Shown one piece after another: positions 19,564-33,957 of a stretch of DNA of 36,620 bases; positions within the stretch are counted from its first letter, which is position 1, and every line of letters begins with the position of its first letter. A model generated the notes under the pieces. That model was not told the DNA's origin. It did not search any database and was given only the letters and a program-made list of their open reading frames with translations. Origin of the DNA: Candidatus Methylomirabilota bacterium (lineage in GTDB: Bacteria > Methylomirabilota > Methylomirabilia > Rokubacteriales > CSP1-6); contig DASYTI010000103.1 in NCBI GenBank assembly GCA_036002485.1, positions 1-36,620 on the forward strand, in the 5' to 3' direction. A program made the translations under genes and the position numbers.

Positions 19564-21042
19564 ATGCGAATGGATCTCCTCCCGGTGCCGAGCGAGCGTA
19601 GACCGCGTCCCCTCCTCTATGGAGCGCTCGTCGTAGGCACGCTCGCCGTGGTCGCCGTCACGGGCTGGCTCCTTCTCTCATCCCCCCTGCTCCTCAAGCG
19701 TCAGGTCGAGGCCGAGACCACCCAGCCCACCGAATCGATGGCCCCGCCCGTCGCCCACGCGCCGGGACGGCCCGCGAAGCTCGCCCTCGTACCGCCTTCG
19801 GACTCCCCCACGCGGCCCGCGCGGGGTCAGGTGCGCGATGCAGAGACGGGCGGTCCGCTGCGTGGCGTCTCCGTCTGGACAGGAGACACGGAGATCCTCA
19901 CCGACGAGAACGGGCGCTTCGCGACCGAGCCCGTCAAGCCGGGCACGGCCGTGCTCATCAAGACCCCGGGCTATGGGCTCCGCCGTCTCACCGCCGGCGA
20001 GGGAGAGATGACGGTCACCCTCGCTCCCAAGGCGGTCCGCGCCGCCTATCTCACCTACTACGGCATCGGGGACAAGGGCATCCGCGAGCGGGTCCTCGAG
20101 CTGGTGGCGCGCACCGAGCTCAATGCCGTCGTCATCGACATCAAGGGCGATCGGGGGCTCATCCCGTACCGAACCGAGGTGCCCCTCGCCCTCGAGGCGG
20201 GCGCGCAGGGCCCTGTCATCATCAAGGACTTCGACGGCATGATCGCGGGGCTCAAGTCGCGCGGCATCTATACGATCGCCCGGATCGTCACCTTCAAGGA
20301 CACCGTCCTCGCCCATCACCGGCCCGACCTGGCCATCATCGACACGCGGACGGGTAAGCCCTGGATCGACAACGAGAAGCTCGCCTGGGTAGATCCCTTC
20401 CGTGAAGAGGTGTGGGACTACGCCATCGCGGTGGCCAAGGAAGCGGCCGCCAAGGGCTTCGACGAGGTGCAGTTCGACTACGTCCGCTTCCCCACCGACG
20501 GCAAGCTCTCGGCGGCCAAGTACTCTCAAGCGAACAATTCGCAGACGCGGCTGCCGGCTATCGCGGGCTTCCTGGCCAGGGCCCGTCGCGAGCTGGCCCC
20601 CCTGGGTGTCTTCGTCGCCGCGGACGTCTTCGGCTATACGGCCTTCAACGAGAATGACACCGATATCGGCCAGCGCGTCGAGGAGCTGTCGGCGCATCTC
20701 GACTATATCTGCCCCATGGTCTATCCCTCGGGCTACCACCGTGGGATCCCGGGCGTGCGCAACCCGGTGGCCCAGCCGTATGAGATCGTCAAGGAAAGTG
20801 TGCGGCTGACGCGCAAGCGTTCCGCGCCCGCGCCGACGGTGGTGCGACCGTGGCTGCAGGACTTCAAGGACTACGCCTTCGACAAGCGCATCTTCGGCGT
20901 GGCCGAGATCAAGGCCCAGCTCCGGGGAGCCAAGGACGGCGGGGCCGTCGGCTACATGCTGTGGAACCCGAAGAACGACTACACCGGCTCGGCCCTGCCG
21001 CCCAAGGCGACGTCGACCGCGAGGGCCACGCCGAACCCGTGA
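19564..21042 (+). CDS. Membrane-anchored putative glycoside hydrolase (DUF4015)
   Basis: This 492-residue protein has an N-terminal membrane anchor at about residues 20-40, with basic residues before it. A low-complexity linker follows to about 85. Next comes a carboxypeptidase-regulatory-like beta domain at about 88-155 (VRDAETGGPLRGVSVWTG). The main domain, about 160-475, is of the DUF4015 type, thought to be a TIM-barrel glycoside hydrolase. Typical strings are VVIDIKGDRG, VTFKDTVLA, EVQFDYVRFPTDG and YICPMVYPSGY. The acidic residues in DEVQFDYVRFP are candidates for catalysis. The substrate is unknown; an extracytoplasmic polysaccharide is likely. Its stop overlaps the GTG start of a NodB deacetylase by four bases, which supports a shared job on a surface polysaccharide. 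Confidence 0.85.
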   Translation: MRMDLLPVPSERRPRPLLYGALVVGTLAVVAVTGWLLLSSPLLLKRQVEAETTQPTESMAPPVAHAPGRPAKLALVPPSDSPTRPARGQVRDAETGGPLRGVSVWTGDTEILTDENGRFATEPVKPGTAVLIKTPGYGLRRLTAGEGEMTVTLAPKAVRAAYLTYYGIGDKGIRERVLELVARTELNAVVIDIKGDRGLIPYRTEVPLALEAGAQGPVIIKDFDGMIAGLKSRGIYTIARIVTFKDTVLAHHRPDLAIIDTRTGKPWIDNEKLAWVDPFREEVWDYAIAVAKEAAAKGFDEVQFDYVRFPTDGKLSAAKYSQANNSQTRLPAIAGFLARARRELAPLGVFVAADVFGYTAFNENDTDIGQRVEELSAHLDYICPMVYPSGYHRGIPGVRNPVAQPYEIVKESVRLTRKRSAPAPTVVRPWLQDFKDYAFDKRIFGVAEIKAQLRGAKDGGAVGYMLWNPKNDYTGSALPPKATSTARATPNP

Positions 21043-21992
21043 TCCGCTCTCTCCGCGCCTGCCTGCTCGCCTGCGCCCTGGTCTTGCCGGCCGGCGCCGC
21101 GGCCGGCGAGCTTCCGCCGAATGAGCTCGGCCGCGTGATGATCCTCGAGTACCACAAGATCGACCAGCCCGAAGAGCGCTGGACTCGCACGCCGGACAAT
21201 TTCCGTCGCGACCTCGAGCGCCTCTGGGAGCGGGGCTACCGGCTCGTGGCCCTCAATGACTTCCTCGATGGCAAGATCGGTGTCCCGCGCGGCACCACGC
21301 CGGTCATCCTCACCTTCGATGACTCCTCCCCGGGCCAGTTCAAGCTCATCGAGAGGAACGGGGAATGGGGCGTGGATCCCGACTGCGCGGTGGGCATCCT
21401 CGAGGCCTTCGAGCGGCGCCACCCGGAGTTCGGCCACGCGGCGACCTTCTTCGTCTTGCCCGGCGCCGATCCGCCGAACCGTCTCTTCAATCAGAAGGAG
21501 CTGGCCAGCCGCAAGCTCCAGTACCTGGCCAGCCGCGGCTACGAGATCGGCAATCACACGCTCTGGCACGCCAATCTCGCCAAGTATTCCGAGCGCGTGG
21601 TGCGTCAGCAGATCGCCACGGCCCAGGAGTGGATACAGCGGCACGTCCCCACCTATCGCATCCGGACGCTGGCCCTGCCCATGGGCGCCTATCCGTCGGA
21701 CATTCGCTGGAGCATCGAGGGAGCGGAGGGTCAGAACAGCTACCGCCACGACGCCATCCTCATGGTGGCGGGAGGCGCGGCGCCGTCGCCCTACGCGCGG
21801 GCCTTCGATCCCTATCGCCTGCCGCGGATCCAGGCCCTCGAGACCGAGCTCGGCCGCTGGCTCGCCCACTTCGAACGCAATCCTCAGGAACGCTATGTCA
21901 GTGACGGCGACCCGGGGCTCATCACCGTCCCGGCGGGGAGCCTGGACAAGGTGCGGCGCTCTCCCGGAGCGAAGGTCGTGGAGCGCCCGTAG
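21039..21992 (+). CDS. Exported NodB-type polysaccharide deacetylase
   Basis: This 317-residue protein starts with a signal peptide (IRSLRACLLACALVLPAGAAA, cut near residue 23). It has a polysaccharide deacetylase fold that removes N- or O-acetyl groups from sugars. Motif 1 is LTFDDSS, with the Asp pair for catalysis and metal, and motif 2 is GNHTLWH with the two metal His. The ALPMGAYP stretch corresponds to motif 3. The insert between motifs (VDPDCAVGILEAFERRHPEF) is longer than in the shortest family members. The GTG 21039 start overlaps the DUF4015 stop, so the two are translationally coupled. Its stop is convergent with the following minus-strand gene, nine bases apart. Confidence 0.88.
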   Translation: MIRSLRACLLACALVLPAGAAAGELPPNELGRVMILEYHKIDQPEERWTRTPDNFRRDLERLWERGYRLVALNDFLDGKIGVPRGTTPVILTFDDSSPGQFKLIERNGEWGVDPDCAVGILEAFERRHPEFGHAATFFVLPGADPPNRLFNQKELASRKLQYLASRGYEIGNHTLWHANLAKYSERVVRQQIATAQEWIQRHVPTYRIRTLALPMGAYPSDIRWSIEGAEGQNSYRHDAILMVAGGAAPSPYARAFDPYRLPRIQALETELGRWLAHFERNPQERYVSDGDPGLITVPAGSLDKVRRSPGAKVVERP

Positions 21993-22001
21993 GCGAGAGG
22001 A

Positions 22002-24326
22002 CTACTTGTAGATGAGATACGACGCGCGCCGCTGGAGAAAGCTGGCCCGATCCGCTTCCGCCCACTTCTGCAGGCGCGCCAGGGAATCCCCCCGCAGGAA
22101 GCTCCACATGGTCGATCGGTTCACGAGAAGGTTCTGGATGGCGGCCGGCCGGAACTGGGCCGGATAGCGATCGAGGAGGAGCCGGCCCAGGGCCAGACCT
22201 ACTGATACCGGCCGGATCGCCTCGCGGTCCGTCACCACGAGACGGACGCCGCCCACCATCTGCCCGGCATAGACACTGGCCGAGGGCTGGAAATTCACCG
22301 GCTGGAAGAGCACGCCGGCCAGCCCGAGGGAGTTGAGGGCATCGGCCAGCCCGGCCGGATTGCTGATCCACGGCGCGCCCACCACTTCGAAGGGCGTATC
22401 CGTGCCCCGCCCCACCGAGAGATTGGTCGCTTCGAGAAGGCCCACCCCCGAATAGAGCAGCGCCTCGAGCGGCGAACGGATATTGGGCGACGGATTGACC
22501 CACGGCAGTCCCGTCTGGTCGAACCACATGGAGCGCTCCCAGCCCTCCATCTCGACGACGGTCAGCTTCACGGGGATCTTGCGCTCGGCGGCCACCATCT
22601 TCGCGAACTCGCCCATGGTCAGGCCCGTCCGCACGGGAATGGTGTGGGGCGCCGTGAAGGAGCGCAGGTCGGCATCCATCAGCGGGCCTTCCACGATCCG
22701 CCCCGTCAAGGGATTGGGCCGATCGAGCACCATGACCTCGACGCCTCTGCGCGCCGCCTCCTCCATGATGTAGACCAGCGTCGTGAGATAGGTGTAGAAG
22801 CGCACGCCCACGTCCTGGATGTCGAAGACGATGACGTCGAGATCGCGGAGCATGGCCGGCGTGGGGCGGCGGTCGCTGCCGTAGAGGCTCCACACCGTCA
22901 ACCCCGTGGTCGCATGCACGCTATTGGGCACCGTGGCATCCAGCGTGCCGTCCAGCCCGTGCTCGGGGGAAAAGAGCGCGCGCAGCTTGAAGACGCCGGC
23001 GGTCGCCATCAAGTCGACGCCACGCCGCCCCTGAGCATCCACGCCGGTCTGGTTGGTGGCGAGCCCCACGGACTTGCCAGCCAGCGGCCCCCAGCCCCCC
23101 GCCGCGAGTCGGTCCAGCCCGGTGCGCGTGTGCCCGGTCGGCGCCTCTCCCGTGGCCGCCTGGCCGGGCACGGGCGCGTCGAGGGCTGTGGTCACGGGCT
23201 CCCCATCCGGCACGAAGAGCTTGGCGCCGACCACGGCGTGGACACGGCGACGGAGCTCGATGGCTGAGCCCTTACCGGTCGGGTGCACCCGGTTCGAGAG
23301 AATGATCACGTAGGTCTTGCTTGGTGGATCCATCCAGATGGACGTGCCCGTAAACCCCGTGTGGCCGACCGAGCCCGTCGGGAAGAACGAGCCCAGGGGA
23401 CGCGAGAAGCCCGAGGCCATGTCCCAGCCGAGGGCGCGCGTGGCTTCGCCCGCGGCGTTGGGGGCGAACATGGCCTGGACGGATGCGGCGGAAAGGACAT
23501 GGCGTCCGGCCAGGGTGCCGCCATGGAGAAGCATGCGGCAGAAACGGCCGAGGTCGTCCACCGTGGAGAAGGCGCCCGCATGCCCGGCCACACCTTTGAG
23601 CAGGCGAGCGTTCGGATCGTGGACGACGCCGCGGAGCATGGTGCCATTGACCTGCTCGGTGGGCGCGATGCGCGGGCGCCAGGCCGCGGGCGGATCGAAC
23701 GTGGTATCACGCATGCCGAGCGGCTGGAAGATGCGCTCGCGCGCGAAGCGATCGAGGGGCTTACCGCTCACGCGCCGGACGAGCTCGCCCAGCACGATGA
23801 AGCCGGTGTCGCTGTAGCGGAACGGCGTGGTGGGCGAGGGTTCCCAGGCCGTGGCGGCCAGGGCCGCCGCGACCTCGGGGAAACCCTTGGCCACGACATC
23901 GCCCGGCGGCACGTCGGGGAACCCGGCCGTGTGCGTGAGCACGCGACGCACGGTGAGCCAGGCGTAGCGGGGCCCCTTGAACTCTTTCAGGTAACGTCCG
24001 AGAGGGGCATCGAGATCGACCTTGCCCGCGTCCACGAGCGCCAGGACGGCGGGCGCGGTCACCACGGGCTTGGTCAGGGAAGCGATGTCGAAGATCGTGT
24101 CGGGCGTCATGGGCTCGGCGGCGGGGACGAGTGCGCGCGAGCCAAGGGCCTTGCGGTAGAGCACGCGATCGCCCTGGCCGATGAGGATGACGACGCCCGG
24201 GGCGTCACCGGCGGCAATCGTGTCACGTACGGCCCGATCGAGATCGGACCAGTCGAGGCTCTGAGGAGTCGCCACCGACGGCCAGAAGAGTACGACGAGC
24301 AAAGATACGCCGGCGCGGCGCCACAT
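22002..24326 (-). CDS. Exported serine beta-lactamase-like/DUF1343 (NamZ) fusion
   Basis: This 774-residue protein has a short signal peptide (residues 1-20). Its N-terminal half (about 25-375) is a class C beta-lactamase-fold hydrolase: SxxK at Ser83-Lys86 (IASLTKP), Tyr171 in YSDTG as the YxN-like motif, and HTGFTG as the KTG-like triad. Residues 395-774 are DUF1343, the family of the exo-lytic N-acetylmuramidase NamZ: GLATNQTGVD, LFSPEHGLDG, FDIQDVGVRFYTY, LDRPNPLTG and the late PTEG-like region. In Bacillus, an AmiE-type amidase with this first fold and NamZ are adjacent genes for muropeptide recycling. Here both are in one chain, so a bifunctional wall-turnover enzyme is a reasonable inference. 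The start ATG at 24326 follows TATCAT by seven bases. Confidence 0.88.
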   Translation of the reverse strand: MWRRAGVSLLVVLFWPSVATPQSLDWSDLDRAVRDTIAAGDAPGVVILIGQGDRVLYRKALGSRALVPAAEPMTPDTIFDIASLTKPVVTAPAVLALVDAGKVDLDAPLGRYLKEFKGPRYAWLTVRRVLTHTAGFPDVPPGDVVAKGFPEVAAALAATAWEPSPTTPFRYSDTGFIVLGELVRRVSGKPLDRFARERIFQPLGMRDTTFDPPAAWRPRIAPTEQVNGTMLRGVVHDPNARLLKGVAGHAGAFSTVDDLGRFCRMLLHGGTLAGRHVLSAASVQAMFAPNAAGEATRALGWDMASGFSRPLGSFFPTGSVGHTGFTGTSIWMDPPSKTYVIILSNRVHPTGKGSAIELRRRVHAVVGAKLFVPDGEPVTTALDAPVPGQAATGEAPTGHTRTGLDRLAAGGWGPLAGKSVGLATNQTGVDAQGRRGVDLMATAGVFKLRALFSPEHGLDGTLDATVPNSVHATTGLTVWSLYGSDRRPTPAMLRDLDVIVFDIQDVGVRFYTYLTTLVYIMEEAARRGVEVMVLDRPNPLTGRIVEGPLMDADLRSFTAPHTIPVRTGLTMGEFAKMVAAERKIPVKLTVVEMEGWERSMWFDQTGLPWVNPSPNIRSPLEALLYSGVGLLEATNLSVGRGTDTPFEVVGAPWISNPAGLADALNSLGLAGVLFQPVNFQPSASVYAGQMVGGVRLVVTDREAIRPVSVGLALGRLLLDRYPAQFRPAAIQNLLVNRSTMWSFLRGDSLARLQKWAEADRASFLQRRASYLIYK

Positions 24327-24333
24327 GGACACT

Positions 24334-24391
24334 ATGATAACGGCCCCGGCGTGGCGTCCGAGGAGAAAATCGGACGGCCGCGTGCTACGAT
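24334..24391. promoter_or_regulatory. Divergent leaderless-type promoters of the wall enzyme and epimerase genes
   Basis: TATCAT on the minus strand (24339-24334) ends seven bases before the ATG at 24326. TACGAT on the plus strand (24386-24391) ends nine bases before the ATG at 24401. No clear -35 boxes or ribosome binding sites accompany them. Confidence 0.5.
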
Positions 24392-24400
24392 TCGTCCCTG

Positions 24401-25303
24401 ATGCAACGCATATTCGTCACCGGCGCCACCGGCTTCGTGGGCCACGCGGTGGTACGCGCGCTCCTCCAGCACGGCTTTCTTGTTCGCTGCCTCGTCCGCC
24501 GAGGCTCGGAGTCTGAGCTGCGCGGATTCGAATCCATCGATCGGGTACCCGGGGACGTGCTCAAGCCCGAGGGTCTCGTCCACGCCGTGGAAGGATGCGC
24601 GGCCGTCATCCACCTCGTGGGCATCATCCGCGAGCACCGGGCGCGCGGGATCACCTTCGAGCGCCTCCATCCTCTGGCCACCGCCAACATGCTGGGCGTC
24701 GCCCACGAGGCCGGCGTCAAGCGCTACGTGCACATGAGCGCGCTCGGGACCCGGTCCGACGCCCGCTCACGCTATCACCAGACAAAGTGGGAGGCCGAGG
24801 AGGTCGTGCGCGCCAGCGCGCTCGAGTGGACCATGTTCCGCCCGTCGCTCATCTACGGCGCGGGCGATGAGTTCGTCTCGATGCTGGCGCGGCTCGTGCG
24901 GCGGGCCCCGGTGGTGCCCGTACTGGGCAGCGGGGAGACACGTTTTCAGCCGGTCGCCGTCGAGCATGTCGCCGAGGGTTTTGTCCGGGCCCTCCGGACT
25001 CCGGCATCCGTGGGCCAGGTCTACGAGGTGGCGGGGCCCCAGGCCTATCGATTCCTCGACATTCTCGATCTGGTCGGCGCCGCCGTGGGCCGCCGGCGGG
25101 TGCGCAAAGTCCACGTGCCGCTGGGGCTGGTGAGGGCGGCCACCCATACCCTCGGCTGGCTCCCATTCTTTCCCGTGACGACCGATCAGCTCATCATGCT
25201 CGACGAGGACAATGTCACGGAGCCCATGCGCTTCTACACCGATTTCGGCATTGCCCCCGAATCATTCGTGGTCGGGCTCTCGCGCATGTTTCCCCCGGCG
25301 TGA
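24401..25303 (+). CDS. NAD(P)-dependent epimerase/dehydratase family protein (NDUFA9-like)
   Basis: This 300-residue protein is an extended-type short-chain dehydrogenase. The nucleotide-binding loop is VTGATGFVGHAVV at residues 5-17. The catalytic Tyr-x3-Lys lies in YHQTKWEAEE, near residues 125-129. VFEVAGPQ-like VYEVAGPQAYRF and FRPSLIYG are typical of the atypical NDUFA9/YwnB-like subgroup that binds NAD(P)H but often has no known reaction. It has no membrane anchor. The next gene starts immediately after its stop, so the two form a pair. The substrate is unknown. Confidence 0.85.
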   Translation: MQRIFVTGATGFVGHAVVRALLQHGFLVRCLVRRGSESELRGFESIDRVPGDVLKPEGLVHAVEGCAAVIHLVGIIREHRARGITFERLHPLATANMLGVAHEAGVKRYVHMSALGTRSDARSRYHQTKWEAEEVVRASALEWTMFRPSLIYGAGDEFVSMLARLVRRAPVVPVLGSGETRFQPVAVEHVAEGFVRALRTPASVGQVYEVAGPQAYRFLDILDLVGAAVGRRRVRKVHVPLGLVRAATHTLGWLPFFPVTTDQLIMLDEDNVTEPMRFYTDFGIAPESFVVGLSRMFPPA

Positions 25304-25768
25304 ATGGACAATCCCTTTCACACCAAGGGGCTTCGCCACGGGTCGAATGATCCGCGCGGCCTCCTCGAGCGCATCGACGCGCAGCTCGGTGAACGCATCG
25401 AGGAAGCCGTCGAGATGGCGGCCCTGGAGCTGCTGGTCGAGCTGCGCAAGCGGCATCATCGGCCGGCGCCCGCCAGCGACAGTCAGGCCGACCGCGATGA
25501 GTTCCACGCTTTGACGGGAGACCTGCTCGGCTATCTCCGCGAGGCCTTCGCCACGGAAGTGACCGCCGAGCGCCGCGCCGCCCTGGCGGAGGCGGAGACC
25601 TCAGGAAGCGGCGAGCGCGAGCGCGCCCTGCGGGATCAGACCTTCCTCGCCAAACAGCTGCCCGACTACTGGCAGCGCTTCGAGGTCCATCGCGCGGCTC
25701 ACGCGGAGGCGCGCCTCTCGGCGCCCCCACCACAGCCAGGCTTCCTCAAGCGACTGTTCGGAAGCTAG
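25304..25768 (+). CDS. Protein of unknown function
   Basis: I do not recognise this 154-residue protein. It is charged and mostly helical, with a probable long helix at about 20-55 (RIDAQLGERIEEAVEMAALELL) and another at about 75-100. It ends PQPGFLKRLFGS, a short amphipathic tail that might touch a membrane. It has no Cys and no signal peptide. It begins one base after the epimerase stop (TGAATG) and must be co-transcribed with it. Its stop overlaps by four bases the stop of the convergent gene at 25765. Confidence 0.6.
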   Translation: MDNPFHTKGLRHGSNDPRGLLERIDAQLGERIEEAVEMAALELLVELRKRHHRPAPASDSQADRDEFHALTGDLLGYLREAFATEVTAERRAALAEAETSGSGERERALRDQTFLAKQLPDYWQRFEVHRAAHAEARLSAPPPQPGFLKRLFGS

Positions 25769-26043
25769 GCAGCCCGCAAAGTCCCCGACGGCGTTTCGTC
25801 CAGCTCGAGCTGAGCGAGAGCCCAGAGATCCTCGCAGGCGCCGAGGGCGCCCTGCCATTCCTCATAGTGGGCGAGCAATGTCCGACGGGCGGCCGTCAGC
25901 CTCGCCTCGGCCGCGTCTAATCGCTCGCGCACTTCCGGCAAGTGCCGGGCGGATGCCGTCGCCACACCCGTCCGGGTCGAGGCCCCTAGCCTGTCCAGCA
26001 GGCGATTCATCTCGTCTTGGAGCAAACGGTCTAGCGGATTCAT
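25765..26043 (-). CDS. Small helical protein of unknown function
   Basis: This 92-residue protein is predicted to be almost all helix, with heptad-like Leu/Ala spacing over about residues 30-85 (VRERLDAAEARLTAARRTLL). It may form a coiled coil. It begins MNPLDRLLQDEMNRLLDRL and has one Cys. The start is supported by GGAGG (26055-26051) seven bases upstream of ATG 26043 and by a good promoter at 26086-26115. Function unknown. It is the only gene between that promoter and the convergent neighbour. Confidence 0.7.
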   Translation of the reverse strand: MNPLDRLLQDEMNRLLDRLGASTRTGVATASARHLPEVRERLDAAEARLTAARRTLLAHYEEWQGALGACEDLWALAQLELDETPSGTLRAA

Positions 26044-26085
26044 GTCATGTCCTCCGTCCCCGATCCCATTTTAGGACGGGCTCCT

Positions 26086-26115
26086 ATACTAAACATCTGA
26101 GGAGTATCCTGTCAA
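26086..26115 (-). promoter_or_regulatory. Promoter of the 92-residue helical protein
   Basis: On the minus strand TTGACA (26115-26110), an 18-base spacer and TAGTAT (26091-26086). The transcript would begin near 26080 with a leader of about 37 bases containing GGAGG. This is a conventional promoter with a leader, in contrast to the leaderless type nearby. Confidence 0.65.
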
Positions 26116-26170
26116 GCTCTCGATGCCGCCGCGGAGCATCCTCAAAGCTGTCCCCGGGGTCACTGGGCAC

Positions 26171-26213
26171 TTGACAGACCCAACAGCTGTTGTATGCTGC
26201 AACACATGTTGCA
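26171..26213 (+). promoter_or_regulatory. chrB: chrB promoter with two palindromic operators
   Basis: TTGACA (26171-26176), a 16-base spacer and TATGCT (26193-26198) form the promoter; the ATG at 26206 follows seven bases later, again leaderless. A perfect 12-base palindrome CAACAGCTGTTG (26181-26192) fills the spacer. A second, TGCAACA-CA-TGTTGCA (26198-26213), overlaps the start. Both share CAACA-N2-TGTTG. A repressor bound here would block RNA polymerase, and ChrB itself is a candidate. Confidence 0.7.
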
Positions 26214-27132
26214 GCCATGGTTGCTTCTCCTCCTGAGCCTGCCACCCCAGCCCTCGAGCCTCCGCGTGCGCACCTGGCGCAAGCTTCGCGCCCTCGGGGC
26301 CGTCGCCCTCAAGAGCGGCGCGTACCTCCTGCCCTTCTCGCCGGATCGCTACGAGCAGTTTCAGTGGCTCGCGCAGGAGGTTCAAAAGGACAGGGGCGAG
26401 GCGACCCTTCTCAAGGTGGACCGAGTAGAGAACGTGAAGGAGGCCGATGTGATCCGCCTCTTCCAGGAAGCGAGAAATGCCGAGTATGCCGCGCTCACCG
26501 ACCGGTACCGCAAGCTCAGCTCGGCCAAGCGGCCCCGCGCGGCCGAGGACCTGGCGCGGCTCGCCCGCGAGATGGACAGGCTGGGCGAGATCGACTTCTT
26601 CGAGGCGCCCGGGCGACAGCAGACCCTCCGAGCCCGCGAGGCGGCCGAGCGCCGTCTGGCCGGACCCGTCAAGCCGGGCCCTCGCCCCGCCGGACGGCTC
26701 GACGTCGAGGCGCTGAAGAATCGGCGCTGGGCGACCCGCCCGCGGCCGCACGTGGATCGGATAGCCTCGGCCTGGCTCATCAAGCGCTTTCTCGATCCGG
26801 CCGCGGAGTTCGTCTTCGCGGCGCCCGACGAGCTGCCGGCCGATGCCATTCCCTTCGACATGGCGGGGGTCGAGCTCGGCCACCACGGCGATCACTGCAC
26901 CTTCGAGACCCTCCTGCACCGTTCGGGGCTACGGGACCGCCGCCTCTTCGCGATCGCGGAGATCGTCCACGAGGCCGATCTCCGCGACGGCAAGTTCCAG
27001 CGCGACGAAGCGCGCGGCCTCGATCTCGTGCTGCGCGGGCTCCTGGCCGCCATCAAGGACGACCAGGAGGCGCTGGCCCAGGGACTGGTCTTGTTCGATG
27101 GCCTCTATTCGACGATTGGAGAACGCCGATGA
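26206..27132 (+). CDS. chrB: ChrB-type chromate resistance/regulatory protein
   Basis: This 308-residue protein matches ChrB, which in Ochrobactrum acts as a chromate-responsive regulator of chromate efflux. The N-terminal ChrB domain, about residues 1-150, opens PWLLLLLSLPPQPSSLRVRTWRKLRALGA and runs into a helical stretch. The C-terminal ChrB domain, about 165-305, contains PHVDRIASAWLIKRFLDPAAEF, HHGDHCTFE and IAEIVHEADLRDGKFQ, whose His, Asp and Cys could bind metal. The ATG at 26206 is preferred over 26194, which precedes the expected transcription start. It heads an operon of at least four cistrons with overlapping stops and starts. No ChrA transporter gene is present, so the substrate may be chromate or another oxyanion. 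Confidence 0.87.
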   Translation: MLQPWLLLLLSLPPQPSSLRVRTWRKLRALGAVALKSGAYLLPFSPDRYEQFQWLAQEVQKDRGEATLLKVDRVENVKEADVIRLFQEARNAEYAALTDRYRKLSSAKRPRAAEDLARLAREMDRLGEIDFFEAPGRQQTLRAREAAERRLAGPVKPGPRPAGRLDVEALKNRRWATRPRPHVDRIASAWLIKRFLDPAAEFVFAAPDELPADAIPFDMAGVELGHHGDHCTFETLLHRSGLRDRRLFAIAEIVHEADLRDGKFQRDEARGLDLVLRGLLAAIKDDQEALAQGLVLFDGLYSTIGERR

Positions 27133-27791
27133 CCGAGACGCGAACCACCTGGGCCTTTGTGGGCAACTTCCTCGATCTGGGCAGTCTCGACTCTGGCGGG
27201 CTCACGGCGCTCATGGTGACGGGCCTCGTGCTCCTCGCCGCGGGAATCGTGGCTGCTCAGCCGGCCGGGAGCTGGCTCTTCGGGGCAACGGGACGGGGCA
27301 CGGCTCAGTGGACTGAAGCGGGGGCGGCCCTGACGTATCGAGGCGGCGCGGCGTATGGCTGGGCCGTGCTTCCCGCCACCTCCCTCCGGGACGGATTCGT
27401 GCAGGTTCGTTTCAAGCCGGTCGCCGGCCGAGAGGACCAGGCGGGAGGCGTGGTGTGGCGCTGGCGCGATGCCGACAACTACTCCGTCGCTCGCGCCAAT
27501 GCCCTGGAAGACAACGTGGTCGCCTACAAGGTCGTGGGCGGGCGCCGCACCGCCCTCGCCCCCGGGGGGACGCCGGCCGGCACGTACGGCGTCAAGACCA
27601 AGGTGGCGAGCGGCGCCTGGCACACGCTGCGCGCCGACTTCTCCGGCTCCGAGTTCACGGTGACCTTCGATGGCCAGCGGCTCTTCGCCGTTCGAGATGA
27701 CACTTTCGCGGAGGCGGGCAAGGTCGGCGTCTGGTCCAAGGCCGACAGCGTGACAGGGTTCGAACGCCCTCAACATGGAGAGAAATCATGA
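27129..27791 (+). CDS. Membrane-anchored lectin-like (DUF1080/LamG-like) protein
   Basis: This 220-residue protein has one membrane segment at about residues 24-42 (ALMVTGLVLLAAGIVAAQ). The outer part, about 55-210, is a beta-rich domain resembling the DUF1080 or concanavalin-like jelly roll: GWAVLPATSLRDGFVQVRFK, GGVVWRWRDADNYSVARAN and FTVTFDGQRLF. These domains bind or process carbohydrates, but no catalytic residue can be named here. The ATG 27129 overlaps the chrB stop (ATGA) and its own stop overlaps the next start, so it belongs to the operon. How an outward-facing binding domain serves a ChrB operon is unclear. Confidence 0.7.
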   Translation: MTETRTTWAFVGNFLDLGSLDSGGLTALMVTGLVLLAAGIVAAQPAGSWLFGATGRGTAQWTEAGAALTYRGGAAYGWAVLPATSLRDGFVQVRFKPVAGREDQAGGVVWRWRDADNYSVARANALEDNVVAYKVVGGRRTALAPGGTPAGTYGVKTKVASGAWHTLRADFSGSEFTVTFDGQRLFAVRDDTFAEAGKVGVWSKADSVTGFERPQHGEKS

Positions 27792-28201
27792 GCGATCATC
27801 CCCACATCCTGTTCGTCTGTCTTCACGGCGCGGCCAAGAGCGTGCTGGCCGCGGCCGACTGCGAGCGCCTCGCCGCCTCGCGAGGGCTCCGCGTGACCGC
27901 CGACTTCGCGGGCACGGAGCCCGATGCCGACATTGCCCCCAAGGTCGCCGCCGCGCTTGCCGTCGACGGCGTCGACCTCGGCGGCAAGAAACCGCGTCTG
28001 GTCACGCGCGAGGATGTCGCCCGCGCGGACCGCGTGGTGGCCTTTGGCTGCGACCTCGGCGCCGCCCTCCCCGCCGGCGTCGCCATCGATCAGTGGGCGG
28101 ATGTGCCCGCGGTGAGTGACGGCCTGCCCGCCGCCCGGGCCGCGATCCACGCGCATCTCGAGCGGCTGCTCGAGGAATGGGGGCGGCCACGAAGGGGGTG
28201 A
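27788..28201 (+). CDS. Low-molecular-weight phosphatase/arsenate reductase-like protein with altered P-loop
   Basis: This 137-residue protein has the length and opening of the LMW protein-tyrosine phosphatase/ArsC fold: HILFVCLHGAAKSVLAA places Cys11 at the end of the first strand. The P-loop reads C-LHGAA-K-S, so Lys17 stands where CX5R enzymes have the Arg that holds the oxyanion. The family's DP acid motif is also absent; WADVPAVSDG is the nearest. Binding without normal catalysis, or a changed substrate, is therefore possible. It is translationally coupled on both sides within the ChrB operon, which fits an oxyanion role. A true arsenate reductase would normally keep the Arg. Confidence 0.75.
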   Translation: MSDHPHILFVCLHGAAKSVLAAADCERLAASRGLRVTADFAGTEPDADIAPKVAAALAVDGVDLGGKKPRLVTREDVARADRVVAFGCDLGAALPAGVAIDQWADVPAVSDGLPAARAAIHAHLERLLEEWGRPRRG

Positions 28202-28314
28202 CCCGCGCCGAGGCCCGCGTGGACCGCATCGCCTGTTCCTGGCTCATCAAGCGCTTCATCGACCGAGACGCGGAATTCCCCTATGGCCAGGGTCGGCTCC
28301 CGCGTGGGGCATAA
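28198..28314 (+). pseudogene. Truncated ChrB C-terminal domain fragment
   Basis: A 38-codon frame starts at GTG overlapping the phosphatase-like stop. It reads ARVDRIACSWLIKRFIDRD, closely like PHVDRIASAWLIKRFLDPA in the ChrB at 26206, and then stops after AEFPYGQGRLPRGA. The normal domain is about 140 residues. The frame overlaps the start of the MFS gene in another phase. A 19-base stretch is identical to the chrB copy (28238-28256 and 26771-26789). Most likely a deletion removed the rest of a second ChrB-domain gene and joined it to the transporter gene. Confidence 0.65.
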
Positions 28315-29455
28315 CGCGCGACTTGTCTTCATCGCCAAGTCCGCCCGGACCTTCTGCTATGGGGCCCTAGGCATCCTCCTGCCCGTCTACCTGACCGAGC
28401 TGGGCTTCGACGCCAGGCAGCTCGGCATCGCGGTCACCCTCACCCTGCTCGCCAGCACGGCCATGACCTTCACGGTGCGCTGGCCGGCCGAGCGCTGGGG
28501 GCCGCGCGCCACCCTCATGGCCCAGTCCGCGCTCATCGTGGGGTCGGCCATCGTCTTTCTGCTCACGCGGCAGCCCTGGGTGGTGGTAGCGGCGGCCATG
28601 GCCGGGAACGTCGCCGTGAGCACGGGCGAGACCGGGCCTTTCCTCTCGCTCGAGCAGGTCATCGTCACTCGGGACGCGGCTCGCGAGCGCCTCAACACCA
28701 CGCTGAGCTATTACAACCTGACGGGCTATGCGGCGGCCGGCCTGGGAGCCGCCGCCGTCACGCAGCTCGGGGCGTCGCACCGGCCGCTCTTTGCCTTGTT
28801 CCTCCTGAGCGGACTCACCCAGCTTGTGGCCTATGGGCTCATGCGGCGTGAGCCCTCACGCCACGCCGCCACCCGGCAGGCCGCGGGAACGCCCTCGCGC
28901 CCCCTCGTCCGGCGCCTGGCCGTCATCTTCGCCCTCGACTCCTTCGCGGGCGGCTTCGTCGTCCAGAGCCTCCTCGCCTACTGGTTCTACACACGCTTCG
29001 GCCTCGGGCTCGATGCCCTCGGCTGGATCTTCTTCGGCGTGCAGATCCTCTCCGGATTGTCGCTGCTGCTGGCCGCCCGCGTGGCGCCGAAGCTCGGGCT
29101 GGTGAACACCATGGTCTTCTCTCACCTGATCTCGAACGTGTTCCTCATCGGCGTGGCCCTCTCTCCCGTGGCCTGGCTCGCCGTCACCTTCCTGCTCGCC
29201 CGTCACCTCCTCTCTCAGATGGACGTGCCGACGCGCCAGACCTTTCTCATGCTGGCCGTGCGCGACCATGAGCGTGAGCATGCGGCGTCCATCACCAATA
29301 TGAGTCGGACGCTGGCGCAGTCGGTGAGCCCCGCCCTCACGGGGCTCGTGATGCAGGGCGTCTGGCTGACCGCGCCTTTCTTCCTCGGCGGAGGTCTCAA
29401 GATCGTCTACGATCTCTGGCTCTACGCCACCATCCGCCACGTGAAGACCTCGTAG
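28283..29455 (+). CDS. Major facilitator superfamily transporter
   Basis: This 390-residue membrane protein has about 12 hydrophobic segments in two halves, joined by a basic loop near residues 190-212 (RREPSRHAATRQ). FTVRWPAERWGPRATLMAQS is the cytoplasmic loop 2-3 with the MFS signature region. The start is uncertain: ATG 28283 lies inside the ChrB fragment, and a GTG at 28304 (VGHNARLVFIAKSARTF) would serve as well. The substrate is unknown. As the last gene of the ChrB operon it could export an oxyanion or a conjugate, as ArsJ does for arseno-phosphoglycerate, but no sequence feature proves this. Confidence 0.85.
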   Translation: MARVGSRVGHNARLVFIAKSARTFCYGALGILLPVYLTELGFDARQLGIAVTLTLLASTAMTFTVRWPAERWGPRATLMAQSALIVGSAIVFLLTRQPWVVVAAAMAGNVAVSTGETGPFLSLEQVIVTRDAARERLNTTLSYYNLTGYAAAGLGAAAVTQLGASHRPLFALFLLSGLTQLVAYGLMRREPSRHAATRQAAGTPSRPLVRRLAVIFALDSFAGGFVVQSLLAYWFYTRFGLGLDALGWIFFGVQILSGLSLLLAARVAPKLGLVNTMVFSHLISNVFLIGVALSPVAWLAVTFLLARHLLSQMDVPTRQTFLMLAVRDHEREHAASITNMSRTLAQSVSPALTGLVMQGVWLTAPFFLGGGLKIVYDLWLYATIRHVKTS

Positions 29456-29500
29456 GGCGCTTCTCGGTACCGCGGCGCCGTAACCCCGGGGCGCGCATAG

Positions 29501-29506
29501 TATGAT
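29501..29506 (+). promoter_or_regulatory. Leaderless-type -10 box of the quinone oxidoreductase gene
   Basis: TATGAT ends eight bases before the ATG at 29515. No -35 match at standard spacing and no Shine-Dalgarno sequence are present in the 59-base gap after the MFS stop. Confidence 0.45.
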
Positions 29507-29514
29507 CGATAGAC

Positions 29515-30489
29515 ATGAAAGCCATGATCGCGACGCAGTGGGGTGAGCCATCCGAGATGCAGTACGCCGAGGTCCCGGACCCGATGCCGGGCCCCGGCCA
29601 GGTATTGATCGACGTCAAGGCCATCGGCTGCAACTTCCCCGACATCCTGATCGTCCAGGGCAAGTATCAGATGAAGCCTCCCCTGCCCTTCAGCCCGGGG
29701 CACGAGGTCGCCGGCATCGTCCTCGCCGTGGGCGCGGGGGTGACGCGAGTCCATCCAGGTCAGCGGGTCTTCGCCATGATCGATCTGGGCGCGTACGCTG
29801 AGCGCGCCGTCTCGGACGACGCGCGGGTCTTCGCCATCCCCGACGGGATGACCTTCGAGGAAGCTGCGGCGTTCGCCCTCGTGAACCAGACGTCGTATTC
29901 CGCCCTCGTTCACCGAGCCCAGGTGCAATCCGGTGAATGGCTGCTCGTCCACGCCGCGGCGGGCGGGGTCGGGCTCGCCGCCGTCCAGATCGGCAAGGCG
30001 CTCGGGGCGCGCGTAATTGCCACGGCGAGCACGGTCGCCAAGCTCGAGATCGCGAGGCAGTCCGGCGCCGACCTCCTCATCAACTACCAGAGCGAGGATT
30101 GGGTCGAGCGGGTGAAGCACGTGACGGACGGGCACGGCGCCGACGTGATCTACGACCCCGTGGGCGGGGACGTCTTCGATGGCTCGAGCAAGTGCATCGC
30201 CTTCGAGGGCCGGCTGCTCGTGGTGGGCTTTGCGGGCGGCCGCATCCCGTCCATCGCCGCCAACCGCATTCTCCTCAAGAACATGTCGGTGGTCGGCGTG
30301 CACTGGGGCATGTACCAGGGCCTCGGATCGCCGCGGGTCGACGAGTGGATGAGCGCGCTGTTCGCGATGTACGGGAAGGGACAGGTCTGGCCCGTCATCT
30401 ACAAGACGTATCGTCTCGCCGAGGCGGCCACGGCCCTCCAGGCTATCGCCTCGCGGGCGAGCTACGGCAAGGTCGTGTTGATTCCCTGA
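29515..30489 (+). CDS. NADPH:quinone oxidoreductase/zinc-free MDR family protein
   Basis: This 324-residue protein is a medium-chain dehydrogenase/reductase of the quinone oxidoreductase type, which reduces quinones or enoyl substrates with NADPH. The N-terminal GroES-like domain contains FPDILIVQGKYQ and PFSPGHEVAGIV. The Rossmann domain carries the AAGGVGLAAVQIGKALGA loop at about residues 146-163. The structural and catalytic zinc Cys sets of alcohol dehydrogenases are absent. VKHVTDGHGADVIYDPVGG is typical. It is alone on its strand, between the ChrB operon and a convergent aminotransferase. The physiological substrate is unknown. Confidence 0.88.
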   Translation: MKAMIATQWGEPSEMQYAEVPDPMPGPGQVLIDVKAIGCNFPDILIVQGKYQMKPPLPFSPGHEVAGIVLAVGAGVTRVHPGQRVFAMIDLGAYAERAVSDDARVFAIPDGMTFEEAAAFALVNQTSYSALVHRAQVQSGEWLLVHAAAGGVGLAAVQIGKALGARVIATASTVAKLEIARQSGADLLINYQSEDWVERVKHVTDGHGADVIYDPVGGDVFDGSSKCIAFEGRLLVVGFAGGRIPSIAANRILLKNMSVVGVHWGMYQGLGSPRVDEWMSALFAMYGKGQVWPVIYKTYRLAEAATALQAIASRASYGKVVLIP

Positions 30490-30548: not shown

Positions 30549-31904
30549 CTACTTGCCGGTGACGGCCTTGACGGCTTCCTGGGTGACCGCGACCATCCGG
30601 TCGAGCTGCTCCTCGGTGATGACGAGGGCCGGCGAGTAGAAGATATTCTCCATACGCGCCCGGGTGATCACGCCGCGCTTGCTCATCTCCTGCATGATCC
30701 GCGCCCCGATCTTCTTGTCCGCGTCGAACGGCTTCTTGGTCGCCTTGTCCTCGACGAGCTCGACGGCGGCGATCAGGCCCTTGCCCGAACGGATATCACC
30801 CACGTTCGGGTGACCATCGAAGGCCGCGTGCAGCGCCTTGTGCAGGCGCGTGCCCAGGGTGGCCGAGCGCTCCCACAGCCGCTCGCGCTCCATGATCTCG
30901 ACGTTCTTCAGGCCCACCGCGCAGCAGGTGGGATGCCCGGAATACGTGTACGCGTGCATCCACTTGTCTTCGGGCTTGACGGAGTCCATGGCCTCCTTGA
31001 TGTCCCTGGAGACCATGATGCCGCCCAGGGGCAGATAGCCCGAGGACACGCCCTTGGCGAAGGACATGATGTCGGGCAGCACGTTCCAGTGCGTCATGGC
31101 GAACCAGTGGCCCGTCCGGCAAAAGCCCGTGATGACCTCGTCCGCGATGAAGAGCACCTGATGCTTGTCGCAGACCTTGCGCACGAGCGGGAAGTAGTCG
31201 TCGCTCGGGTAGATCACGCCGCCCCCGCCGTGGATGGGCTCGGCGATGAAGGCGGCCACGGTCTCGGGGCCTTCGCTCACAATGGCCTCCTCGAGGAGGC
31301 GGGAGGCGGTCTGTCCGGGCGTCTCGCCAGGCTTGGCGCCCTCCTGACGGTACGGGTAGCAGGTGGGGATGTGCACGAAGTTCGGCACGCGCGGCTCGAA
31401 CATCTTCCAGTACGGGGCCATGCCCGTGGCACTCATGGCCTGCAGCGTCACGCCGTGATACGCATTGACGCGCGCGATGATCTTGACCTTGTCGGGCTTG
31501 CCCTTGGCCTTCCAGTAGAAGCGCGCCGTCTTGAAGGCGGACTCGTTGGACTCCGCGCCCCCGCACGTGAAGAAGACCCCCTGCATGTTCTTGTAGGAGA
31601 GCGAGATGAGCTTTTCCGCCAGCTCGACGGCCGGGATGTTCGACGACCCCGCGTACGCCGAGAAATAAGCGAGCTCGCCCATCTGCGCCGCCGCGGCCTT
31701 GGCCAGCTCCTCGCGCCCGTGGCCGACATTCGTGTTCCAGAGCCCGGCCAGGCCGTCGATGTATTCCCGGCCCTGGATATCCGTGATCATGGCTCCGCGG
31801 CCCTTGACGTAGACCATGGGCTCCAGGTGATCGCTGGGATGGTGCAGCGGGTGGATCAGGTGGTCCTGGTCGGACTTGATCAGCTCTGCGGCCTGCACCG
31901 GCAT
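30549..31904 (-). CDS. Class III pyridoxal-phosphate aminotransferase
   Basis: This 451-residue enzyme belongs to the omega-amino acid/polyamine:pyruvate aminotransferase group (fold type I). The PLP Lys is Lys284 in SFAKGVSSGYLPLGG. FIADEVITGFCRTG provides the Asp that contacts the pyridine nitrogen, and FFTCGGAESNESAFKTAR binds the phosphate. AEPIHGGGGVIYP is also standard. Candidate amino donors include putrescine, taurine and beta-alanine; the sequence does not decide. The start ATG 31904 has a strong GAGGAGG about seven bases upstream. It is the last gene of a minus-strand run, 20 bases after the gamma-glutamylcyclotransferase-like gene. Confidence 0.92.
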   Translation of the reverse strand: MPVQAAELIKSDQDHLIHPLHHPSDHLEPMVYVKGRGAMITDIQGREYIDGLAGLWNTNVGHGREELAKAAAAQMGELAYFSAYAGSSNIPAVELAEKLISLSYKNMQGVFFTCGGAESNESAFKTARFYWKAKGKPDKVKIIARVNAYHGVTLQAMSATGMAPYWKMFEPRVPNFVHIPTCYPYRQEGAKPGETPGQTASRLLEEAIVSEGPETVAAFIAEPIHGGGGVIYPSDDYFPLVRKVCDKHQVLFIADEVITGFCRTGHWFAMTHWNVLPDIMSFAKGVSSGYLPLGGIMVSRDIKEAMDSVKPEDKWMHAYTYSGHPTCCAVGLKNVEIMERERLWERSATLGTRLHKALHAAFDGHPNVGDIRSGKGLIAAVELVEDKATKKPFDADKKIGARIMQEMSKRGVITRARMENIFYSPALVITEEQLDRMVAVTQEAVKAVTGK

Positions 31905-31924: not shown

Positions 31925-32314
31925 TCAGCGGTGATGGATGGACCGAGCGGGCGCATGCGCCCGATAGTCACCACCGGGAATCGGAGTGGCCCGGTCGAGC
32001 GGTCCGACGTACCAGTACATGCACGCCCGGACCGGCCCGCCGGGAGCCCTCTCTATCCCGGCCTCCTCGCGATGATACTGGCTCCCCTCGGCGGAGTCCA
32101 GCACCCTCCAGAAGGCCGGATCGAGGAGTCGATAGATCTCGCCGCGAATCTTTCCTGTCGCGCACTTGAGCGCGGCGGGGTAGCGGCCGAGGTCGAAGAG
32201 AAGCCCCGGTGTCGCGGCCTTCCCCAGGTACTCGGCCCGGCCTTCGAGCAGAGGGTGGAGCGGGAAGCCGCGCATGAGAGTGCCGTAGACGAAGAGGAGA
32301 TGGTCACCGCCCAC
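31925..32314 (-). CDS. Gamma-glutamylcyclotransferase-like (AIG2) protein
   Basis: This 129-residue protein has the AIG2/GGCT fold opening LLFVYGTLMRG, where the YGTL loop binds the gamma-glutamyl group. The probable catalytic Glu lies in VLDSAEGSQYHREE, the family's usual LDxxEG position. Such enzymes release 5-oxoproline from gamma-glutamyl amines or peptides. The GTG at 32314 is taken as start because the protein then begins a few residues before the first strand; it overlaps the hydrolase stop by 11 bases. Upstream in-frame starts would add a proline- and serine-rich stretch lying inside the neighbour. The true substrate is unknown. Confidence 0.82.
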   Translation of the reverse strand: MGGDHLLFVYGTLMRGFPLHPLLEGRAEYLGKAATPGLLFDLGRYPAALKCATGKIRGEIYRLLDPAFWRVLDSAEGSQYHREEAGIERAPGGPVRACMYWYVGPLDRATPIPGGDYRAHAPARSIHHR

Positions 32315-33128
32315 GGAGCACGGCCTCGAATTCCCGGAGGGCCCGAGCGTAGCGCTCGCCGGCCACCCACATGAAGTCATTGTGATGCGCGCCGGGCACG
32401 ATCAGGAGACGCTTCGGCTCCAGCGCCGCCTGAAAGAGGCGCTGCCCGTGCCAGAGGGGCACGATCTCGTCGGCTTCACCGTGCATGATCAGCACGGGGC
32501 ACCGCACATGCCCGATCTTGTCGATGTTCCTGAACTTGTCGAACGGAAAGACGGGCAGGCTGGTCATCACCCGAAACGCCGTGACGAATCCCGACTCCAC
32601 GATGAGTCCGCCCAGTTGACGACGCGAAGCGAGATCCACCGCCGCTCCCACCCCCACCGAGCGGCCATAGGCGATGATGCGATCCGGCGCGACGGCCAGT
32701 TCCCGGGTGAGGTGCTGATAGGCGGCCTCGATGTCACCATAGGCATGCCGCTCGGACGGTCTTCCCTCGCTCGTGCCATAGCCGCGATAGTCATAGACAA
32801 GTACCGCGAAGCCGAGCTGTCTCAAGACGGGCACGATGGACCGGACCACCCCCAAGTCCTCGGCGTTCCCGTGGCTGTAGAGGAGCGTGTAGCGGGCCTC
32901 GGGATTCGCCGCGTACAGTGCGGCGATGCGCGGGCCATCGGCGGTGGGAATCTTCACGATCTCCGCGGTGTCGCGATAGGTGGGCGGCGGAGGCAGGAAG
33001 ATCATGCGGTCCGCATAGAGCCAGGCCAGGACCCCGATGGCCGCATAGACGAACGCGATCGAGAGCAGGACGCGGAAGAGCGATAGCTCGGGGATCAGCA
33101 GGCGCCGGATCCCCGTCCGACTGAGCAT
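32304..33128 (-). CDS. Membrane-anchored alpha/beta hydrolase (BEM46/ABHD17-like)
   Basis: This 274-residue protein has one N-terminal membrane segment (about residues 18-38) followed by an alpha/beta hydrolase domain. The nucleophile elbow is AYGRSVGVGAA, with Ser near 156. The acid is in MHGEADEIVPLWHG, and the His is in GAHHNDFMW. YSHGNAEDLG is the oxyanion segment. This GxSxG-with-Arg pattern and the late HNDF motif match the BEM46/ABHD13-17 group of serine hydrolases, some of which remove acyl groups. The start at 33128 has no clear ribosome binding site, so a slightly later start is possible. It is 69 bases downstream of a small membrane protein gene. Confidence 0.87.
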   Translation of the reverse strand: MLSRTGIRRLLIPELSLFRVLLSIAFVYAAIGVLAWLYADRMIFLPPPPTYRDTAEIVKIPTADGPRIAALYAANPEARYTLLYSHGNAEDLGVVRSIVPVLRQLGFAVLVYDYRGYGTSEGRPSERHAYGDIEAAYQHLTRELAVAPDRIIAYGRSVGVGAAVDLASRRQLGGLIVESGFVTAFRVMTSLPVFPFDKFRNIDKIGHVRCPVLIMHGEADEIVPLWHGQRLFQAALEPKRLLIVPGAHHNDFMWVAGERYARALREFEAVLRGR

Positions 33129-33197: not shown

Positions 33198-33299
33198 TCA
33201 GCTGGTCTTGATGCCGAAGCGCGGAAGCACCCAGCGCGCCACGACGATCCATGCGGCGGCCGCGACCACCACGGCGACGAGCATCCAGATCGTGTCCAT
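33198..33299 (-). CDS. 33-residue single-span membrane protein
   Basis: This short gene encodes MDTIWMLVAVVVAAAAWIVV followed by a basic end, ARWVLPRFGIKTS. It has one membrane helix (about residues 4-20) with a positively charged cytoplasmic tail. The start is convincing: AAGGAGGG stands seven bases upstream, inside the end of the thioredoxin-fold gene, and the ATG follows that gene's TAG by one base, so translation is coupled. I know no family for it. The tight coupling suggests it helps the preceding redox protein, for example by anchoring it, but that is inference. Confidence 0.7.
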   Translation of the reverse strand: MDTIWMLVAVVVAAAAWIVVARWVLPRFGIKTS

Positions 33300-33300
33300 A

Positions 33301-33957
33301 CTAGCCCTCCTTGCCGTCCGGCGCCGCCTGAAGCACCGCTTTCAAGAACTCGGGCTCGGGATAGGCGCCCTCGAACTCGACGCGGTCATTGATGACAACC
33401 TTGGGCACGGCCATGACGTGATAGCGCTGCGAAATATCAGGGAACTCATTGGCCTCGATGCACTCCGCGCGAACCCTGTCCGACGCGATCGCCATGTGCT
33501 GCGCCAGGCGCACGGCCCGGGGACAATGCGGTCAGGTCGGCGTCGCGAAGACCTTGATGCGGACGTCCCCGGTCAGCCCGGCCAGGGCCTGCTTGGTCTC
33601 CTCCGAGAGCTGCGCCTCACCGCGGGAGACGGCGACGATGGAGTCGATGAGATTGGAGAACTCGTAGCCGGCGGGAATGCCGAGGAAACGGATACCGTAG
33701 TCCTTGGCGCCCTCCACGGCCACCGCGGGGGTGACCGACACGTCATAGGCGGCCGTCTCGTCGCGCTCGATGTGAGGGTTGAGCACCTTGACGGAGATCT
33801 GATCGGAGAGGGCGGCCACTTCCTTGATGAGGGCGACCGTCTCGGCATTGGTTTCCGGGCCGAGCTCGGAGGCGAAGACGGTGAGCCTGACCGGGCCCGT
33901 CAGCTTCTCGAACTCGCGCTTGACCGCCTGCTCGTCCTGCGCCGTCAGGAACCCCAT
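33301..33957 (-). CDS. Selenocysteine-containing thioredoxin-fold protein (two-domain PDO/glutaredoxin-like)
   Basis: Read through one in-frame UGA (33534-33532), this gene makes a 218-residue protein with two thioredoxin-like domains, the layout and length of protein disulfide oxidoreductases (about 225 residues). The UGA is codon 142, giving VFATPT-Sec-PHC-PRAV: it replaces the first Cys of the CPHC active site, with Cys145 retained. Sequence homology continues across it: after the UGA come helix HMAIASDRV, then RYHVMAVPKVVIND with the cis-Pro loop VPKVVI. The first domain (about 1-115) has no CxxC at the equivalent site (VFASELGPETN). A stem-loop lies 15-41 bases after the UGA. ATG 33957 is chosen because TATACT (33969-33964) ends six bases upstream. 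A plain nonsense mutation is the alternative; exact placement at a redox Cys makes it much less likely. Confidence 0.85.
33491..33534 (-). promoter_or_regulatory. UGA-Sec codon with candidate bacterial SECIS hairpin
   Basis: Starting 16 bases after the UGA, the mRNA segment 33516-33491 can fold: GCCGUG pairs with CAUGGC (one G-U pair) and, past one C/A mismatch, GC pairs with GC around loop CUGGCGCA. An alternative inner stem is GCGC/GCGC around CUG. The apical part falls 23-33 bases after the UGA, in the range where bacterial SECIS loops bind SelB. It is inside the coding sequence, as expected in bacteria. Strength and SelB binding are unproven. Confidence 0.55.

Follow-up and report, generated by a model that had tools for sequence, protein, structure and literature searches.

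On the minus strand of the window, the whole stretch of 36,620 nucleotides that was analysed (contig C103 of a Rokubacteria metagenome-assembled genome, or MAG, of 4.45 Mb in 253 contigs, 95.7% complete), two frames at 33532-33957 and 33301-33513 share one phase and have a TGA at 33534-33532 as their sole separator, raising the question of whether they are two genes or a single selenoprotein gene. The positions 33957 to 33301 form a single frame of 218 codons, from an ATG at 33957 to a TAG at 33303-33301, broken solely by the TGA at codon 142, around which the translation reads ...IKVFATPT-U-PHCPRAVRLAQHM... The features concerned are:

33301-33957, minus strand: putative selenocysteine (Sec)-containing protein disulfide oxidoreductase (PDO), 218 residues with one in-frame TGA, assigned from TIGR02187 and structure matches.
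33532-33534, minus strand: TGA codon 142, very probably read as Sec, position 1 of the U-P-H-C active site, from codon comparison.

The read-through product matches the NCBIfam model TIGR02187 (PDO_seleno_TRX, a name that already includes "seleno") with a score of 258.9 bits where the cut-off is 185, over model positions 2-209 of 209. The PDO of Pyrococcus furiosus (1a8l) is aligned with it from query residue 17 to 227 (E = 1.9e-46), across the TGA, such that the C-terminal CPYC of 1a8l is paired with UPHC and its first Cys falls on the TGA; the C-terminal thioredoxin fold has its redox motif, UPHC replacing CPYC. Both the frame and these two matches bear out the coordinates, phase and motif given in a preliminary description of the locus, and its proposal that two apparent genes are one frame split by UGA is upheld by the alignment of 1a8l across the TGA and by the sharing of this TGA among 29 Rokubacterial genes. 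Its remark that the formate dehydrogenase of the window has Cys at the classic Sec position agrees, by motif only, with the Cys of RLCHSPSV near 16701 in a formate-dehydrogenase-like frame.

Rokubacteria belong to the phylum Methylomirabilota in GTDB, and 51 of the 60 genomes examined from the order carry the PDO gene; every matched row has one or more in-frame TGAs. Where the Sec codon was read base by base (30 Rokubacterial genes), it is TGA in 29 and AGA in one, whereas 23 homologues of other lineages, including Thermococcus, WOR-3 and Aminicenantes, have TGC or TGT; TGA also occurs outside Rokubacteria in a Chloroflexi, an Acidobacterium and two Bacillota. The expectation that aligned homologues would have Cys at codon 142 holds for most of those outside Rokubacteria. 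The closest PDO copies among named relatives are those of Candidatus Rokubacteria. The 29 Rokubacterial Sec forms all group together in a 54-row tree, as a single clade with support 100/99, and the state of this site changes three times across the whole tree. A second TGA in several relatives was considered as a second Sec codon and rejected, as it lies upstream of the start codon in the translations inspected.

The exceptional AGA (Arg) belongs to G058 (NC_groundwater_3_Ag_B; L026/L065), a genome of the same genus, in which the gene is otherwise intact, the downstream element is closely similar despite the AGA, and the TGA that was counted sits elsewhere. Both selD matches of G058 were scored with one in-frame TGA. 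The AGA may be an error, a polymorphism or a loss.

A candidate Sec insertion element follows the UGA:

33504-33520, minus strand: predicted bacterial SECIS (bSECIS) hairpin, CCGGGC-[CGUGC]-GCCUGG, from synonymous codons invariant in 29 genomes and the bSECIS rule.

According to the published rule for bacterial SECIS elements (PMC13188914), the window hairpin qualifies: its predicted loop, CGUGC, lies 17 nt past the UGA, G and U are the second and third loop bases, and its predicted energy is -8.4 kcal/mol. Of 37 Sec rows, 35 satisfy the rule (four are repeat entries for genomes already represented), as do 1 of the 22 Cys rows and approximately 29% of codon-shuffled controls. In the stretch that follows the UGA, codons +5 to +9 (CGG GCC GTG CGC CTG) are identical in 29/29 Rokubacterial genes, though all have synonyms, and among seven-codon windows of the PDO gene the lowest synonymous diversity is at codons +4 to +10 (mean ratio 0.20, versus approximately 0.8 for the rest). 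When the 43-nt segment of the window is folded alone, the predicted hairpin is the centroid structure, but the minimum-energy structure is a different one and is no more stable than those of shuffles; the case for a SECIS is thus based on synonymous constraint and on the contrast between Sec and Cys rows, not on stability. Covariation is not demonstrable for a hairpin that is nearly invariant within Rokubacteria, and Rfam has no match at the predicted element.

Most members of the order have the machinery for Sec incorporation: above cut-off, selA is found in 54, tRNA-Sec in 49 and selD in 58 of 60 genomes, and selB in 51 of 57 genomes of the family. Nearly all selD matches of the order themselves contain one in-frame TGA (CAGUASK in L016), and the exceptional matches are one fragment and three second selD copies housed in longer frames. 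In a downstream hairpin of selD that was specified by hand, compensated changes were counted at two pairs; RNAalifold found no consensus structure for this element. This MAG has a selD with an in-frame TGA and a second selD, which lacks the TGA (C54:11480-12397 of G000, this MAG; L017) and lies inside a frame of approximately 750-800 codons, possibly encoding a fusion protein, as also in G057 and G069. Family searches of the MAG found no selA, selB or tRNA-Sec. The best selB-like match, a 758-codon frame on C222, was rejected as SelB because it reads as what we take to be translation initiation factor IF-2, and tRNA-Sec candidates at the eight loci checked are ordinary tRNAs. Thus, of the four genes by which the preliminary description proposed to check its reading, this MAG has selD and lacks the other three, which are present in most relatives.

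Comparison with contig C56 of G059 places two contigs of this MAG, C219 and C193, at 20604-30206 and 42118-47953; the approximately 12 kb between them, which in relatives holds selA, selB, tRNA-Sec and other genes, is absent. C193 stops, within an interspersed repeat, at the contig end that faces the missing interval. C219 runs on into unrelated genes, so that the gene order of relatives is broken inside the contig: at C219:10479-18113 (L150), TRAP-transporter-like and aldolase-like genes (identified by eye) are found where relatives have the neighbours of the sel operon, and this junction may be a rearrangement or a chimeric contig. The repeat, of approximately 130-190 bp, has dozens of matches in this MAG (for example C193:10-96 and C219:10332-10478), one of them being at the contig end next to the absent sel genes. 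Of the two readings of the missing interval, an assembly gap is the more probable and a deletion the less.

That a sequencing or assembly error made TGA from TGC or TGT, the true residue being Cys, might be suspected of a window that is one contig of one MAG, with G058 differing at the same codon; the recurrence of TGA at this codon in 29 separate genome assemblies, together with fixed synonymous codons downstream, makes such an error extremely improbable. Scarcely more credible is a genuine stop at the UGA, the product being the N-terminal domain and the C-terminal part either a remnant in decay or a gene of its own. Such a stop would accord with the failure to find selA, selB and tRNA-Sec in this MAG, but the C-terminal half is conserved and in frame across homologues, and no active site is present in the N-terminal half of the Rokubacterial forms, so that a product truncated at the UGA would be redox-inactive.

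Somewhat more probable, though still unlikely, is that this species recently lost tRNA-Sec, selA and selB, leaving an inherited Sec codon that is no longer decoded: all three genes are absent from the MAG, and the departure of the C219 flank from the gene order of relatives inside a contig is what a rearrangement or deletion would explain. However, the C193 flank runs out at a contig end on the side of the missing interval, the other genes of the interval are missing along with the sel genes, a selD with an in-frame TGA is retained, and the closest relative, G057, carries selA, selB and tRNA-Sec. The preliminary description had regarded a complete genome without selB and tRNA-Sec as evidence against Sec; this incomplete MAG does lack both, but their absence does not refute Sec because the whole region in which relatives have them is missing. 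Its proposal of UGA as Sec is sustained by the order-wide TGA, the Cys of most outside homologues, the constrained SECIS-like hairpin and the presence of the machinery in nearly all relatives, and on these comparisons the codon that looks like a stop very probably specifies selenocysteine in a thiol-disulfide redox enzyme.

The description of a two-domain thioredoxin-fold protein was correct as to the two folds, but in Rokubacteria a redox centre is kept in only one of them. The window PDO has ASELGPETNAET and no Cys anywhere in its N-terminal half, and so lacks the N-terminal CxxC of a two-site PDO; this CxxC is absent from 29/29 Rokubacterial rows (seven with no Cys in the N-terminal half and 22 with one) and present in 26/26 relatives outside the order, whether of Sec or Cys type. 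As judged from sequence, the Rokubacterial PDO has one redox centre, which is predicted to be Sec-based. SelB with Sec-tRNA would decode the UGA at codon 142, guided by the hairpin 17 nt downstream, and would insert Sec as the nucleophile of the UPHC site in the C-terminal fold, as sequence conservation suggests; the N-terminal thioredoxin fold is devoid of a Cys pair. In the Sulfolobus PDO, thiol-transferase activity depends fundamentally on the C-terminal site and isomerase activity needs both sites (PMC7465337), and PDO receives electrons from thioredoxin reductase and feeds peroxiredoxins (PMC7278568). By analogy, the Rokubacterial PDO is probably a thiol-disulfide reductase of the cytoplasm that is supplied by thioredoxin reductase and serves, for example, peroxiredoxins, without isomerase activity. 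With slightly less assurance, we favour the view that it represents a distinct one-site, selenium-only branch, in which loss of the N-terminal site and retention of the C-terminal Sec made an oxidoreductase/isomerase with two sites into a selenium-dependent enzyme dedicated to reduction, in non-thermophilic soil and groundwater bacteria.

The genes on the 3' side of the PDO gene are as follows:

33198-33299, minus strand: predicted single-span membrane microprotein, a 33-codon frame (MDTIWMLVAVVVAAAAWIVVARWVLPRFGIKTS) that begins 1 base past the PDO stop.
31925-32380, minus strand: GGACT-type gamma-glutamyl cyclotransferase, conserved neighbour downstream of PDO, from locus comparison.
30549-31904, minus strand: class III aminotransferase, conserved neighbour downstream of PDO, from locus comparison.

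The order PDO-cyclotransferase-aminotransferase on one strand is conserved in Rokubacterial loci (cyclotransferase in 27/29, aminotransferase in 29/29), but these neighbours identify no substrate of the PDO. The microprotein belongs to a family whose members, approximately 29-33 residues long, share one hydrophobic span and a tail of RW(V/I)LPRFG(I/V)xT or close to it, which has no Pfam family above cut-off; it is found immediately 3' of the PDO stop in several genera (the window, L023, L025, L026, L027, L028, L029, L032 and L039) and away from PDO at L182, L183, L185, L186 and L187.

The TIGR02187 family has already been catalogued as a UxxC selenoprotein in Carboxydothermus hydrogenoformans and Symbiobacterium thermophilum, and is described as a Grx-like "homolog of AhpF N-terminal domain" with the reference entry ABB15282.1, in the accessible portions of PMC13188914, PMC9312934 and PMC1794560, which do not name Rokubacteria for this family. 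A 2026 review mentions a MAG of Methylomirabilota for which 63 selenoproteins are predicted, and a full-text literature search, with most subscription journals outside its coverage, yielded few matches, none of them a paper on Rokubacterial selenoproteins. The family is thus a known one, and its one-site Rokubacterial variant is apparently undescribed; its significance lies in the order-wide fixation of Sec in bacteria that are uncultured, and in a gene of which a standard gene caller would make two.

Like the catalogued TIGR02187 selenoproteins, the Rokubacterial PDO matches the same model and has one predicted Sec per protein, first in a CxxC-type site; unlike the 26 outside relatives compared, whether of Sec or Cys type, it lacks the N-terminal CxxC. 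It resembles the N-terminal domain of AhpF in its tandem thioredoxin fold and its partial matches to AhpF models, but the window PDO scores far below the AhpF cut-offs and has no flavin reductase domain. PDOs have been described as exclusive to thermophiles (PMC7465337), whereas the MAGs that supplied the relatives of the window PDO carry the labels of soil-depth or groundwater samples. As in archaeal PDOs, there are two thioredoxin folds, with full-length alignment to those of P. furiosus (1a8l) and P. horikoshii (1j08); however, the archaeal enzymes (1a8l, 1j08 and that of Sulfolobus solfataricus) have Cys in two CxxC sites, whereas the Rokubacterial PDO, predicted to be selenium-based with one site, is a natural one-site form that would be useful for testing the role of each site, and whether a Sec enzyme came to dispense with the second one.
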